This document shows, piece by piece, positions 2,982-11,782 of a stretch of 12,441 bases of DNA. The DNA lies in assembly GCA_003694465.1 (NCBI GenBank), contig RFKM01000172.1, positions 1 to 12,441 of the forward strand. The letters run 5' to 3'. Below the pieces are notes generated by a model. It saw nothing but the letters and a program-made list of their open reading frames with translations, was not told the origin of the DNA and did not search any database. Within the stretch, counting starts at the first letter, position 1; the number at the start of each line of letters is the position of its first letter. This DNA is from Alphaproteobacteria bacterium (GTDB lineage Bacteria; Pseudomonadota; Alphaproteobacteria; Rhodobacterales; Rhodobacteraceae). A program made the position numbers and the translations under genes.

Positions 2982-3641
2982 ATGACGGCACGGGTCGCGG
3001 ACAAGGCAGAAGGCGGCGCGGGGTTGGGCGCCGGGCCCGATCTGCGCGGCCGGCGCCGACGGCGCACCGCCGAAACCATCCGCCGCGCCGCCCTCGATCT
3101 GGTGCGGCGCCACGGGCTCGAGGCGGTCACCGTCGAGATGATCGCCGAGGCCGCTGGCATCAGCCTGCGCACTTTCTTCAACTATTTCAAATACAAGGAA
3201 GAGGCGCTGCTGCGCCCGCCGATGGCCCTCGACGGGGCCGAGGCCGAAGCTTTCGCCGCCGGGCGGGGCAGCCTGATCGACGATTTTCTCGCCCTCATCG
3301 CCACCCATCTCGAAGACGCCGCCCCCGACCGCGCAGAGATCGCCATGATCATGCGCCTTGCCGAGGAAAACCCGCGCCTTCTTGCGGTGCGCGAGCGCAT
3401 TTTCGCCAGTTATGAGAACGCCTTTCGCGGCCTTCTGGCGCGCCGCCTCGGCCGGGCGGAGGATGACCGCGAAACCCGGCTGCTTTCGGCGGTGATCGGC
3501 GCGGCCTTCGAAGTCGCCATGAACCGCTGGGTGGCCGGCACCGCCGCCGACAGCCTGTGCGAGGAGCTGCGCGAAACCCTGAACGCCCTGCCGCGCCTGC
3601 TTGCCGAGGCGGGCCGGGAAGGGGCGAACGGGGCCGGCTGA
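2982..3641 (+). CDS. TetR/AcrR-family transcriptional regulator
   Basis: A 219-residue DNA-binding regulator, usual length for the family, and probably the local repressor of the divergent RND operon. Seen: a basic N-terminal stretch (RGRRRRRTAETIRRAALDLV), then a helix-turn-helix at about residues 40-72, including TVEMIAEAAGISLRTFFNYF followed by KYKEEALL, the classic TetR signature. The remaining ~145 residues form a helical ligand/dimer domain with no recognisable ligand-specific motif. AGGGGG at 2961-2966 is rather far (15 nt) from the ATG, so ribosome binding is not strong, but no better in-frame start was found. It is divergent from the efflux genes and convergent with acr3, with only 10 bp between the two reading frames. 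Regulation of the pump, and possibly of its own gene, is inferred from position and from the inverted repeats in the shared upstream region. Confidence 0.9.
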   Translation: MTARVADKAEGGAGLGAGPDLRGRRRRRTAETIRRAALDLVRRHGLEAVTVEMIAEAAGISLRTFFNYFKYKEEALLRPPMALDGAEAEAFAAGRGSLIDDFLALIATHLEDAAPDRAEIAMIMRLAEENPRLLAVRERIFASYENAFRGLLARRLGRAEDDRETRLLSAVIGAAFEVAMNRWVAGTAADSLCEELRETLNALPRLLAEAGREGANGAG

Positions 3642-8796: not shown

Positions 8797-8878
8797 GGGC
8801 GGGTGGCGTTCCTACCTAAGAGCGCACGGAATGCGCGCGCGGCGTGTTTCGCCCACCGTGAGCAGCAAGGAGGCAGAT

Positions 8879-10372
8879 GTGACTGCGTTGATCCGCTCTG
8901 AAGATTTTTCCAAGGTCCGCTCGAAGTTGACCCCGGCGCGGGCCATTGCCGCGACGATGATGACGCTGGCCCTTTTCCTGATGTCGGTGCCGGAGGCGAT
9001 CGCGCGCGGGGCGCCCGAGAGCTTTGCCGACCTCGCCGAGCAGGTCTCGCCCGCCGTCGTCAACATCACCACCACGACGGTGGTGGCGCAGGACACCCAG
9101 CAGCTGCCGATGGTGCCGCCGGGCTCGCCCTTCGAGGAGTTCTTCCGCCGCTTCCAGGAGCAGAACCAGGGCGATCAGCCGCAGGTGCGCCGGGGCCATG
9201 CGCTGGGTTCGGGCTTCGTGATCTCGGAAGACGGCTACATCGTCACCAACAACCACGTCATCGAGGGGGCCGACGAGATTCAGGTCGAGTTCTACGGCTC
9301 GGGCAAGGTGCTTGATGCCAAGGTGGTCGGCACCGATACCAACACCGACATCGCCCTGCTCAAGGTCGACAGCGACGAGCCGCTGACCTTTGTCAGCTTC
9401 GGCGACAGCGACAAGATGCGCGTGGGCGACTGGGTGATCGCGGTGGGCAACCCGCTGGGGCAGGGCTTTTCGGTCACGGCGGGGATCATCTCGGCCCGCG
9501 GGCGCGAGCTCAGCGGCACCTATGACGATTTCATCCAGACCGACGCCGCCATCAACCGCGGCAACTCCGGCGGCCCGCTGTTCAACATGGATGGCGAGGT
9601 GATCGGGGTGAACACCGCGATCCTGTCGCCCAACGGCGGTTCGATCGGCATCGGCTTCTCGATGGCCTCCAACGTGGTCTCCAAGGTGGTCGACCAGCTG
9701 CAGAAATACGGCGAAACCCGCCGTGGCTGGCTGGGCGTGCGCATCCAGGACCTGACCCCGGACGTGGCCGAGGCGATGGGGCTCGACAGCACCGACGGGG
9801 CGCTGGTCAGCGACGTGCCCGACGGGCCGGCCAAACAGGCCGGGATCGAGCCGGGCGACGTGATCGTCGAATTCGACGGCCAGAAGGTGAAGAGCACCCG
9901 CGAGCTGGTGCGCATCGTCGCCGACGCCCCGGTGGGCAAGACCGTCCGCGTCGTGGTGCTGCGCAACGGCGAAAGCAAGACGGTGAAGGTCACCCTCGGG
10001 CGCCGCGAAGAGGCGCTGGCTTCCGAAGAAAGCGGCGCCAAGCCGATGCCCGGCGTCCAGACCCCGCCGGCCGAAAAGTCCGTGCTCGGCATGAAACTGC
10101 GCGAGCTGGACGATTCCCTGCGCGGCGATCTCGGCCTCGATGCCAATGCCCGCGGGCTGGTGGTGACCGATGTCGACGAGGCGAGCGAGGCCTGGTCGAA
10201 GGGGCTGCGCCCGGGCGACGTGATCGAGGAAGCCGGGCAGGCGCGGGTTTCGAGCCTTGCCGACATCGAGGGCCGGATCGAGGCGGCGCGCGCGGCGGGC
10301 CGGCAGTCGATCCTGCTGCTGATCCGGCGCAACGGCGATCCGCGCTTCGTTGCCCTGTCACTCGGCAACTGA
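8879..10372 (+). CDS. degP: DegP/HtrA-family periplasmic serine endoprotease (Do)
   Basis: An ATP-independent periplasmic protease and chaperone that clears misfolded envelope proteins. From GTG 8879 it has 497 residues. That start is chosen because AAGGAGG (8867-8873) lies 5 nt upstream; ATG 8831 would add 16 residues and has no good ribosome site. Seen: a signal-like segment at about 17-42 (ARAIAATMMTLALFLM, then PEAIARG). The trypsin-like domain has the catalytic triad: His126 in TNNHVIEGA, Asp157 in NTDIALLKVD, Ser230 in RGNSGGPLFN; the spacings match E. coli DegP. Two PDZ domains follow: first GWLGVRIQDL through GIEPGDVIVEFDGQKV, second from SVLGMKLREL through KGLRPGDVIEEAGQ. It lies beside hflKC, a membrane-protease regulator, so the block looks dedicated to envelope quality control. 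Confidence 0.95.
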   Translation: MTALIRSEDFSKVRSKLTPARAIAATMMTLALFLMSVPEAIARGAPESFADLAEQVSPAVVNITTTTVVAQDTQQLPMVPPGSPFEEFFRRFQEQNQGDQPQVRRGHALGSGFVISEDGYIVTNNHVIEGADEIQVEFYGSGKVLDAKVVGTDTNTDIALLKVDSDEPLTFVSFGDSDKMRVGDWVIAVGNPLGQGFSVTAGIISARGRELSGTYDDFIQTDAAINRGNSGGPLFNMDGEVIGVNTAILSPNGGSIGIGFSMASNVVSKVVDQLQKYGETRRGWLGVRIQDLTPDVAEAMGLDSTDGALVSDVPDGPAKQAGIEPGDVIVEFDGQKVKSTRELVRIVADAPVGKTVRVVVLRNGESKTVKVTLGRREEALASEESGAKPMPGVQTPPAEKSVLGMKLRELDDSLRGDLGLDANARGLVVTDVDEASEAWSKGLRPGDVIEEAGQARVSSLADIEGRIEAARAAGRQSILLLIRRNGDPRFVALSLGN

Positions 10373-10383
10373 AACATGAAAAA

Positions 10384-10401
10384 CCCCGCCCGAAGGCGGG
10401 G
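10384..10401. terminator. Intrinsic terminator hairpin, best for the minus-strand DUF1127 gene
   Basis: CCCCGCC (10384-10390) pairs with GGCGGGG (10395-10401) across a CGAA loop. On the minus strand it is followed by five T residues (10383-10379), a classic intrinsic terminator for the DUF1127 transcript. It lies 11 bp after the degP stop and also forms in the degP RNA. Confidence 0.75.
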
Positions 10402-10407
10402 CGAAGG

Positions 10408-10426
10408 GGCCGCCCTTGGGGCGGCC
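10408..10426. terminator. Second terminator hairpin, probably for degP
   Basis: GGCCGCCC (10408-10415) pairs with GGGCGGCC (10419-10426) across a 3-nt loop, followed on the plus strand by the pyrimidine-rich TCTTGCGTTT. With the hairpin at 10384 it forms a two-hairpin bidirectional barrier between the convergent degP and DUF1127 genes. Confidence 0.65.
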
Positions 10427-10442
10427 TCTTGCGTTTCTGGCC

Positions 10443-10640
10443 TCAGAAGCGGCGGTAGATGTCGGCGCGGGTGAGGCCGATGTCGTCGAGCTCGCGCGCG
10501 GTCAGTTTTTCGAGCGCCCGGCGGGTGGCGCGGCGGGCCTGCGCCTCGGCGACGCGGCCGACGAGGGTTTCGATGAAGCGGGTGAGGCGCGGCGCGAAGG
10601 CAAAGCCGGTGGCGCGCACGGCGGTGTCGATGGCGGTCAT
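10443..10640 (-). CDS. Small DUF1127 protein
   Basis: A 65-residue basic protein starting [17 protein letters not shown]. Its second half is [20 protein letters not shown] followed by [10 protein letters not shown], the diagnostic DUF1127 (YjiS-like) C-terminus. Such proteins are common in alphaproteobacteria; a Rhodobacter sphaeroides member (CcaF1) is reported as an RNA-binding protein affecting RNA turnover and stress responses, so an RNA role is possible here, by family only. The reading frame stays open upstream to 11057, but the family boundary and length fix the start at ATG 10640. The ribosome binding site is poor (GGGAAC about 7 nt upstream). It is convergent with degP and divergent from ruvC, with the repeat array in its upstream region. 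Confidence 0.85.
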
Positions 10641-10735: not shown

Positions 10736-10826
10736 GCGCGAGCATGGCAGGCGATCCGGGGGCACAGGCAGCGGCGGGAAGCATGGGCGCTCGGTGACGG
10801 GTGCGCCGATCTGGCCGGGGAAGAGC

Positions 10827-10851
10827 CATGCGAATCCAGCGCCCCGATTCC
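10827..10851 (+). repeat. Degenerate outlying copy of the 26-bp repeat
   Basis: CATGCGAATCCAG, then an unrelated centre, then GATTCC. It keeps both ends of the array unit (one base shorter) and two of its GANTC sites (10832-10836, 10846-10850). It begins 86 bp before the first good unit, twice the array's period of about 43 bp. The intermediate position (from 10862) starts CACG but is otherwise hardly recognisable. Confidence 0.5.
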
Positions 10852-10912
10852 ATGGGGTGTCCACGAACAACGCGGCTCCCATGTCCCGAATTCCGCCTGT
10901 TCGGTGAGAGAC

Positions 10913-11167
10913 CACGCGAATCCGGATTGCTGGATTCCCCCGGATCCCGCCCCCTTCCACGCGAATCCGGATTTCTGGCTTTTTGCATTTCTCCGGATCG
11001 CTCGTCCTCACACGCAAAACCGGATTCTTGGATTCGCGAACCGCTGGTGGCAACCACGCGAATCTAGATTCCTGGATTCGACGCACCGGCCCTGCGCGAC
11101 GCGAACCCGGAGTCCTCGATCCTGCCCTGGCTCGGAAGACCCACGCGAATCTAGATTCCTGGATTCC
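10913..11167 (+). repeat. Array of six 26-bp GANTC-rich repeats
   Basis: Units begin at 10913, 10958, 11011, 11055, 11098 and 11142, so steps are 45, 53, 44, 43 and 44 bp. The unit reads CACGCGAATC, then YRG, then ATTYCTGGATTC and one C or G. Units 4 and 6 are identical over 25 bases with core GAATCTAGATTC; units 1 and 2 have a CCGG centre; unit 3 has CAAAACC for CGAATCC; unit 5 (11098) is the most diverged. The 17-27 bp between units are unlike each other. A full unit has one GAATC followed by two GATTC, 7 and 8 bp apart start to start. The period is not a multiple of three, so the array is not coding. No repeat family is recognised. It ends 108 bp before ruvC. Confidence 0.9.
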
Positions 11168-11226
11168 GTGACACCATTTCGCAATGCACGCCTCCCGCCC
11201 CGAACGCGCGCATTTTTCTGGCGGAT

Positions 11227-11241
11227 GTTCGCGTTTCGTGC
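11227..11241 (+). promoter_or_regulatory. LexA (SOS) box-like site upstream of ruvC
   Basis: GTTC (11227-11230), seven bases, GTGC (11238-11241). This differs at one base from the alphaproteobacterial LexA box GTTC-N7-GTTC. It lies about 35 bp before the ruvC start, a normal position for repression, and ruv genes are SOS-controlled in many bacteria. A single short imperfect match can arise by chance. Confidence 0.35.
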
Positions 11242-11275: not shown

Positions 11276-11782
11276 ATGCGCGTGATCGGAATTGACCCGG
11301 GGCTGCGAAACCTCGGCTGGGGCGTGATCGACGTCGACGGCAGCCGGATTTCCCATGTCGCCAACGGGGTGCTCCACGGCGAGGGCGACGGTCTCGCCGC
11401 CCGGCTGCTTGCGCTGTTCGACGGTCTTTCCGAGGTCATCGCCCGCCATCGCCCCGAAACCGCCGCCGTCGAGCAGACCTTTGTCAACCGCGACGGCGCC
11501 GGCACCCTGAAGCTCGGACAGGCGCGGGGGATCGCCCTTCTGGTGCCGGCGCGCGCCGGGCTTGAGGTCGGCGAATATGCCCCCAACCAGGTCAAGAAGA
11601 CGGTGGTTGGCGTCGGCCATGCCGACAAGGCCCAGATCGCCCACATGGTGCGCCTGCAACTGCCGGGCGTCGAAATTGCCGGCCCCGACGCCGCCGATGC
11701 GCTCGCCATTGCCCTGACCCACGCCCATTTCTGCCGGGCCGGGCAGCGCCTCGGCGCCGCGCTCGAAAGGGCCGGGGCATGA
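11276..11782 (+). CDS. ruvC: Holliday-junction resolvase RuvC
   Basis: The endonuclease that cuts Holliday junctions symmetrically during recombinational repair, acting as a dimer with RuvAB. 168 residues, typical. All four catalytic carboxylates stand at the same positions as in E. coli: Asp7 in [10 protein letters not shown], Glu66 in [11 protein letters not shown], Asp138 and Asp141 in [29 protein letters not shown] is the other conserved block. The frame is open far upstream through the repeat array, but MRVIGIDPG is the universal RuvC N-terminus, so ATG 11276 is the start; AGGG at 11266-11269 lies 6 nt before it. Its stop overlaps the ruvA start as ATGA, so ruvC-ruvA form an operon, usually continued by ruvB. 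Confidence 0.96.

Follow-up and report, generated by a model that had tools for sequence, protein, structure and literature searches.

A dense GANTC cluster upstream of ruvC in a Rhodobacteraceae genome is probably one array of a dispersed intergenic hairpin repeat

According to Di Nocera et al. (2013, PMC3733652), REPs are imperfect palindromes of 20-40 bp that are intergenic, occur in many copies and are often species-specific. They favour gaps between convergent and tandem genes. In the same account, REPs of the CGTC type are common in alphaproteobacteria and are described without a dedicated transposase, GTGG appears as a variant tag in one GTAG family, and untagged REP-like families have already been reported, including ones from Brucellae. 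CIRs of Caulobacter and Brucella (Chen and Shapiro 2003, as summarised in a 2007 review, PMC2229807) are about 110 bp long and consist of two hairpin arms and a linker. As far as that review goes, they are conserved between species, their function is undetermined, and so is the reason why intergenic repeats of alphaproteobacteria carry CcrM sites. In Alphaproteobacteria with ccrM, depletion of GANTC is general, and the pentamer is over-represented in intergenic DNA, according to PMC3973325. In Caulobacter and Sinorhizobium, MucR is described as shielding GANTC from CcrM (PMC5172544). Our literature search yielded no repeat of exactly the kind described below, CIR and REP being the nearest.

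The window is the whole stretch of DNA that was analysed, 12,441 nt from a Rhodobacteraceae assembly (1.96 Mb in 380 contigs, 74% complete). The original prediction had pointed to a dense GANTC cluster in it, and a recount reproduced all 21 listed starts exactly: 14 pentamers at 10832-11166 and seven in the rest of the window. Mononucleotide shuffles of the 341-bp stretch with the cluster gave a mean of 1.16 pentamers and a maximum of 6, none of 5000 reaching 14. Over its full length the window is poor in GANTC, with 21 pentamers against a mean of 60 in dinucleotide shuffles. Both the enrichment in the array and the depletion outside it were borne out, but the earlier expectation of about 33 pentamers for the rest of the window was too low; since the dinucleotide expectation exceeds it, the depletion outside the array is stronger than first stated.

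The 14 pentamers form the body of a hairpin repeat of 26-32 bp, present here as seven head-to-tail units of 26 nt on the forward strand. Unit 5 (11054-11079) is the reference copy, with three GANTC and a centre, GAATCTAGATTC, that is a perfect palindrome. Unit 7 (11141-11166) is the same across its 26 nt and also carries three pentamers. Two pentamers each are found in units 2 (10912-10937) and 4 (11010-11035), and one in unit 3 (10957-10982). The remaining units are degenerate: unit 1 (10826-10851) is 65% identical to the reference and has two GANTC but falls below the 13-bit cut used for the genome, and unit 6 (11097-11122), at 73%, has one, as GAGTC. No Rfam family matched the window at gathering thresholds, and assignment of the array to a known RNA family was dropped.

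The array sits between two divergent genes, a DUF1127 gene (PF06568; 10443-10640, reverse strand) and ruvC (PF02075; 11276-11782, forward strand), and ends 110 bp from the ruvC start. A TGTTC-N7-GTGC box, which we take to be LexA-like, is located upstream of ruvC at 11226-11241 on the forward strand. It starts 53 bp upstream of position 11279, outside the array; the array lies further upstream, and the box is untouched and intact. A gene for an HtrA/DegP-type protease adjoins the DUF1127 gene (window 8831-10640); an htrA match was observed in the loci of 7 of 80 relatives (3-kb flanks), four of the seven being named Maritimibacter.

The 14-letter core of the repeat, with at most one mismatch, matched the whole assembly 49 + 41 times, whereas the reversed pattern gave 0 + 1; these figures are not a copy number, as a near-palindromic copy may be matched twice, once per strand. 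We read 33 of the 39 core-matching contigs, the window's included (199,111 bp, 10% of the assembly), and set aside six whose matches looked poor by eye (C12, C120, C153, C166, C224, C375). A position weight matrix with a 13-bit cut located 64 copies, distributed over 28 of the 33 contigs, and none in a Markov-shuffled control. The other five contigs have no copy above the cut; two of the five, C299 and C310, contain an exact core match. All copy counts are lower bounds, and in 9 of the 28 contigs the array comes within 200 bp of a contig end. When 341-bp stretches of these 33 contigs were ranked by GANTC density, as the original prediction had suggested, the window array came second with 14 after a stretch with 19, in a sample that is non-random, having been selected for a match to the repeat core. 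Every one of the 23 non-overlapping stretches with at least five pentamers contains the repeat, and stretches without it reach four at most.

In our judgement the GANTC cluster is likely explained by an intergenic hairpin repeat of the REP/CIR kind that is dispersed and specific to this lineage. The cluster would then be a consequence of the repeat, with no implication that it controls DUF1127 or ruvC in particular.

The core is 26-32 bp long, with the consensus approximately AACCACGCGAATCTAGATTCSTGGATTCCGTG, and conservation drops off beyond about 32 bp. It is made of GAATC words and their complements GATTC, and therefore an intact copy carries three or four CcrM sites. The fourth GANTC, at the left end, is present in 8 of the 64 copies; most others start with AACCACG or similar. 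The only fully symmetric copy, at L146, is GAATCCACGAATCTAGATTCGTGGATTC, a complete 28-nt palindrome composed in turn of GAATC, CAC, GAATC, TA, GATTC, GTG and GATTC. The spacing of the pentamers is specific: two GANTC separated by two nucleotides occur in 65 places (reversed pattern 1), versus 8 places (reversed pattern 4) for the control spacing of four. Four typed variants fold as hairpins when DNA parameters are used, with z-scores of -5.0, -2.3, -7.0 and -3.4. On contig L152, a 23-bp inverted repeat, TGACGATCCCGGCGGGATCGTCA, possibly a terminator, lies within about 200 bp of the copy at 3321-3346.

All 28 repeat loci lie outside genes, as predicted by our own codon-usage script, although 83% of the contigs read is predicted to be coding. 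Eighteen repeat-bearing gaps are flanked by a predicted gene at either end; 9 of them are convergent, 7 tandem and 2 divergent (16 of 18 convergent or tandem), the window locus being one of the two divergent exceptions. Among the 64 gaps that lack the repeat and are 60 bp or longer, 6 are convergent, 34 are tandem and 24 are divergent. Convergent gaps are thus enriched (9/18 with the repeat versus 6/64 without, p = 0.0004), in gap sets that are unmatched in length, with medians of 608 bp and 174 bp, respectively. One possibility is that the repeats act at the RNA level, as hairpins at the 3' ends of genes that stabilise mRNA or cause attenuation, as proposed for REPs. The preference for convergent gaps, the predicted hairpin (DNA parameters only) and the same location bias described for REPs (PMC3733652) are consistent with such a role. 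However, the window array is upstream of both its genes, and a scan for base-pair covariation found no convincing compensatory changes, so we regard an RNA-level role as very improbable.

The genes next to the repeat are unrelated. They encode serine hydroxymethyltransferase, a SufS-type desulfurase, histidinol dehydrogenase, IF-3, DHQ synthase, an ectoine hydrolase-like protein, a GyrB-type protein, and LacI-type and LysR-type regulators. A regulon of repeat-flanking genes was considered and rejected: 18 of the 46 such genes were scanned and have no common theme, three of the 18 being without a match.

These observations bear on the original prediction that the cluster is a methylation-state sensor timing the expression of DUF1127 or ruvCA. 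The array does lie between two divergent genes, close to the ruvC start; ccrM is present in the genome; and GANTC clusters in front of ccrM itself, here and in one other genome of the family, make such control plausible in the family. However, the repeat also stands beside unrelated genes and is enriched in convergent gaps, which hold no promoter to time, and a timing role is therefore doubtful. In 68 of 80 relatives ruvC is preceded by a DUF1127 match, and the pair is old in the family by this distribution. In these 68 the distance to ruvC, measured from the end of the match, is 210-468 bp, versus a gap of 635 bp here. The 700 bp upstream of ruvC contain 0-4 GANTC in each of the 80 relatives; the four nearest have 0, 0, 1 and 0. 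Among named relatives, a Maritimibacter MAG and Sinisalibacter aestuarii have the most similar RuvC (86%). Of the 80 related loci, 75 have a TGTTC-N7-GTKC box no more than 120 bp upstream of ruvC, all without the array, and the corresponding box is intact here. Finally, the pentamers in the genome's own ccrM promoter vary in the N and in spacing, unlike those of the rigid repeat. That the array times DUF1127 or ruvC is unlikely, and as a specific methylation sensor for these genes it seems to us a most improbable reading. The methylation interpretation as originally put forward is partly supported: the presence of ccrM, the extreme density of the array and the retention of the pentamers across the repeat copies speak for it, and the evidence on the repeat's neighbours and on the relatives speaks against the proposed function.

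The genome contains a full-length gene of the CcrM type, one of the checks proposed at the outset. Its frame of 366 aa has N6_N4_Mtase and RAMA domains and a full-length match to NF050803 (CcrM) of 631 bits, below the cut-off of 830. The repeat sites are probably methylated by this enzyme. The gcrA gene was not found in the assembly, which is 74% complete. The ccrM promoter (L169:603-642) contains three GANTC (GATTC, GAATC and GACTC) within 40 bp, and nine are found ahead of ccrM in another genome of the family (L188:1426-1548); methylation feedback on ccrM is possible.

Across the 64 copies, 174 of 192 GANTC pentamers are kept. The fixed letters of GANTC are mismatched in 20 of 768 cases versus 12 of 192 for the N (p = 0.02); five other core positions have 34 mismatches in 320. 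The difference is clearest at site 3, which was absent from the pattern used to choose contigs, though present in the weight matrix: 5 of 256 versus 7 of 64 (p = 0.003), and 5 of 156 versus 6 of 39 among the 39 unique cores (p = 0.009). All these p-values are optimistic, as the copies share ancestry. The lower variability of G, A, T and C relative to the N favours some constraint on GANTC. On the other hand, even the N is unchanged in about 94% of cases; conservation covers the entire core, and the constraint extends well beyond GANTC.

This conservation is relevant to a second explanation, a genome-wide element linked to CcrM, in which a protein would bind or read clustered GANTC in the methylated or hemimethylated state, or shield it from CcrM, and so mark gene ends. 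In addition to the ccrM gene and the mismatch bias, it is favoured by the density of the pentamer (on the contigs read, 75 per kb in the repeats, 1.2 in coding sequence and 2.5 in the remaining intergenic DNA), and MucR provides a described precedent for shielding (PMC5172544). However, the near-fixation of the N, the caveat on the p-values and the failure to find gcrA in the incomplete assembly all weigh against it, and we consider such an element unlikely. A particular form of it may be imagined. Since SeqA reads clustered GATC, a putative GANTC reader could by analogy discriminate full, hemi and bare methylation states. The palindrome, which consists almost only of CcrM sites, would then be kept by selection at gene ends throughout the genome as a CcrM-coupled chromosomal mark, and its arrays would report the passage of the replication fork. 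This analogy is a speculative one, and we think it quite unlikely to hold.

The dispersed hairpin repeat remains the preferred explanation, and the layout of its copies suggests how the array could have arisen. Repeats occur singly or in head-to-tail arrays. The spacing of 38 neighbouring pairs is 43-47 bp in 17 and 93-107 bp in 13. Mean identity in these pairs is 0.82 for the cores and 0.43 for the flanks, with 0.28 for random sequence; without the L149 and L155 loci (30 pairs) the values are 0.80 and 0.38. The L149 array still keeps whole tandem copies of 46 bp, and L155 is perhaps its other end. Spacers are mostly private to a locus: with the cores masked, the comparison returned the L149/L155 pair plus some weak or GC-rich matches. 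The 3' flanks at L151:7346 and L163:9699 are alike (score 22 versus shuffled maxima of 16-20 in 20 rounds), and those of L152 and L153 slightly so (score 21). The unit copied at some loci may be longer than the core, near 100 bp. A CRISPR array was considered and rejected on the layout of the repeats: they are not confined to one or few loci, the repeat being dispersed over 28 contigs, its units are degenerate, and its spacers are 17-124 nt long.

In the proposed scenario, a copy of the repeat would have entered the spacer between DUF1127 and ruvC and then multiplied there by tandem duplication. The genomes searched included no sister species with the repeat, so both the insertion and its direction are inferred. 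The spacers would subsequently have diverged around a preserved core, kept either through selection (for binding or structure) or because it was copied again and again. Conservation of this core is better than would be expected of a decaying neutral insertion, which leaves room for a function.

The repeat as a family is held by none of the other genomes searched, where loose patterns gave at most three matches per genome. None of 60 relatives has a match with at most one mismatch. Triplets of GANTC with the same spacing occur in 19 of 394 genomes of the family, this one included, with at most three elsewhere (strands summed) versus 30 + 31 here. A core pattern with free N occurs in 23 of the 394, again including this one, with at most two elsewhere versus 13 + 20 here. 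Inspection by eye of 16 of 19 triplet loci from the 18 other genomes (L170, L177 and L180 excluded) revealed no array of the repeat unit. A viral origin or wide spread was rejected: the exact 23-letter pattern is absent from the viral_contigs and genome_contigs collections, from which the records nearest to the window's genome were possibly omitted.

Some isolated sequences in the family deserve mention. Genome G183 has a lone GACTCCACGACTCTAGAGTCCTG (L173:1501-1523), laid out like the repeat but with the N letters swapped in both arms. It is the sole such match there, and the one that was read among the 23 matches of the free-N core in other genomes; perhaps it is a distant relative of the repeat, or a chance occurrence. 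Genomes G348 (L184:1363-1531) and G394 (L179 from 1501) contain recurring units similar to CCCCGGATTCCTCAC or to TTCGGGG, with many GANTC; by eye, the units of the two genomes resemble each other.

Within the searches made, we observed no set of equally dense stretches lacking the repeat, no absence of CcrM from the host and no related arrays that kept the repeat and lost the pentamers, the three findings named at the outset as contradicting the original prediction. Methylation sites packed extremely densely next to a gene can be a by-product of a multiplying repeat, which calls for caution in methylome studies of Alphaproteobacteria. If a reader protein exists, the dozens of natural copies, single and arrayed, would make the effects of GANTC density testable.

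Comparison with described systems places the repeat nearest to REPs and CIRs. Clustered intergenic GANTC in ccrM-bearing alphaproteobacteria are also a feature of the MucR sites as described (PMC5172544); those are linked to promoters or genes and have a known binder, whereas here the pentamers are parts of a dispersed repeat. With CIRs, as characterised in the review (PMC2229807), the repeat shares dispersed intergenic inverted repeats with GANTC in a ccrM-bearing alphaproteobacterium. It differs in its length of 26-32 bp, its one hairpin with three or four GANTC in the body, its frequent head-to-tail arrays and its occurrence in a single one of the genomes searched; this separation is by the described size and layout.

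The general traits of REPs in the account of Di Nocera et al. (PMC3733652) are all present: a short imperfect palindrome of 26-32 bp, a predicted hairpin (four variants), many extragenic copies in convergent and tandem gaps, and occurrence in one genome. CGTC REPs in that account likewise have no dedicated transposase; for the present repeat, no mobilising enzyme of the Y1/RAYT transposase type was found in the assembly (74% complete). Head-to-tail pairs are negligible in CGTC families as described there, whereas head-to-tail arrays occur here. No tag is consistent, GTAG being found in at most 1 and CGTC in at most 4 of the 64 copies in any placement tested. Read on the complementary strand, 48 of the 64 copies have GTGG at the left end, as the conserved CCAC, and this is mostly paired in the consensus fold. 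Finally, unlike REPs, the core is saturated with GANTC. We therefore file the repeat as a new, GANTC-saturated candidate family of the already known untagged REP-like kind.
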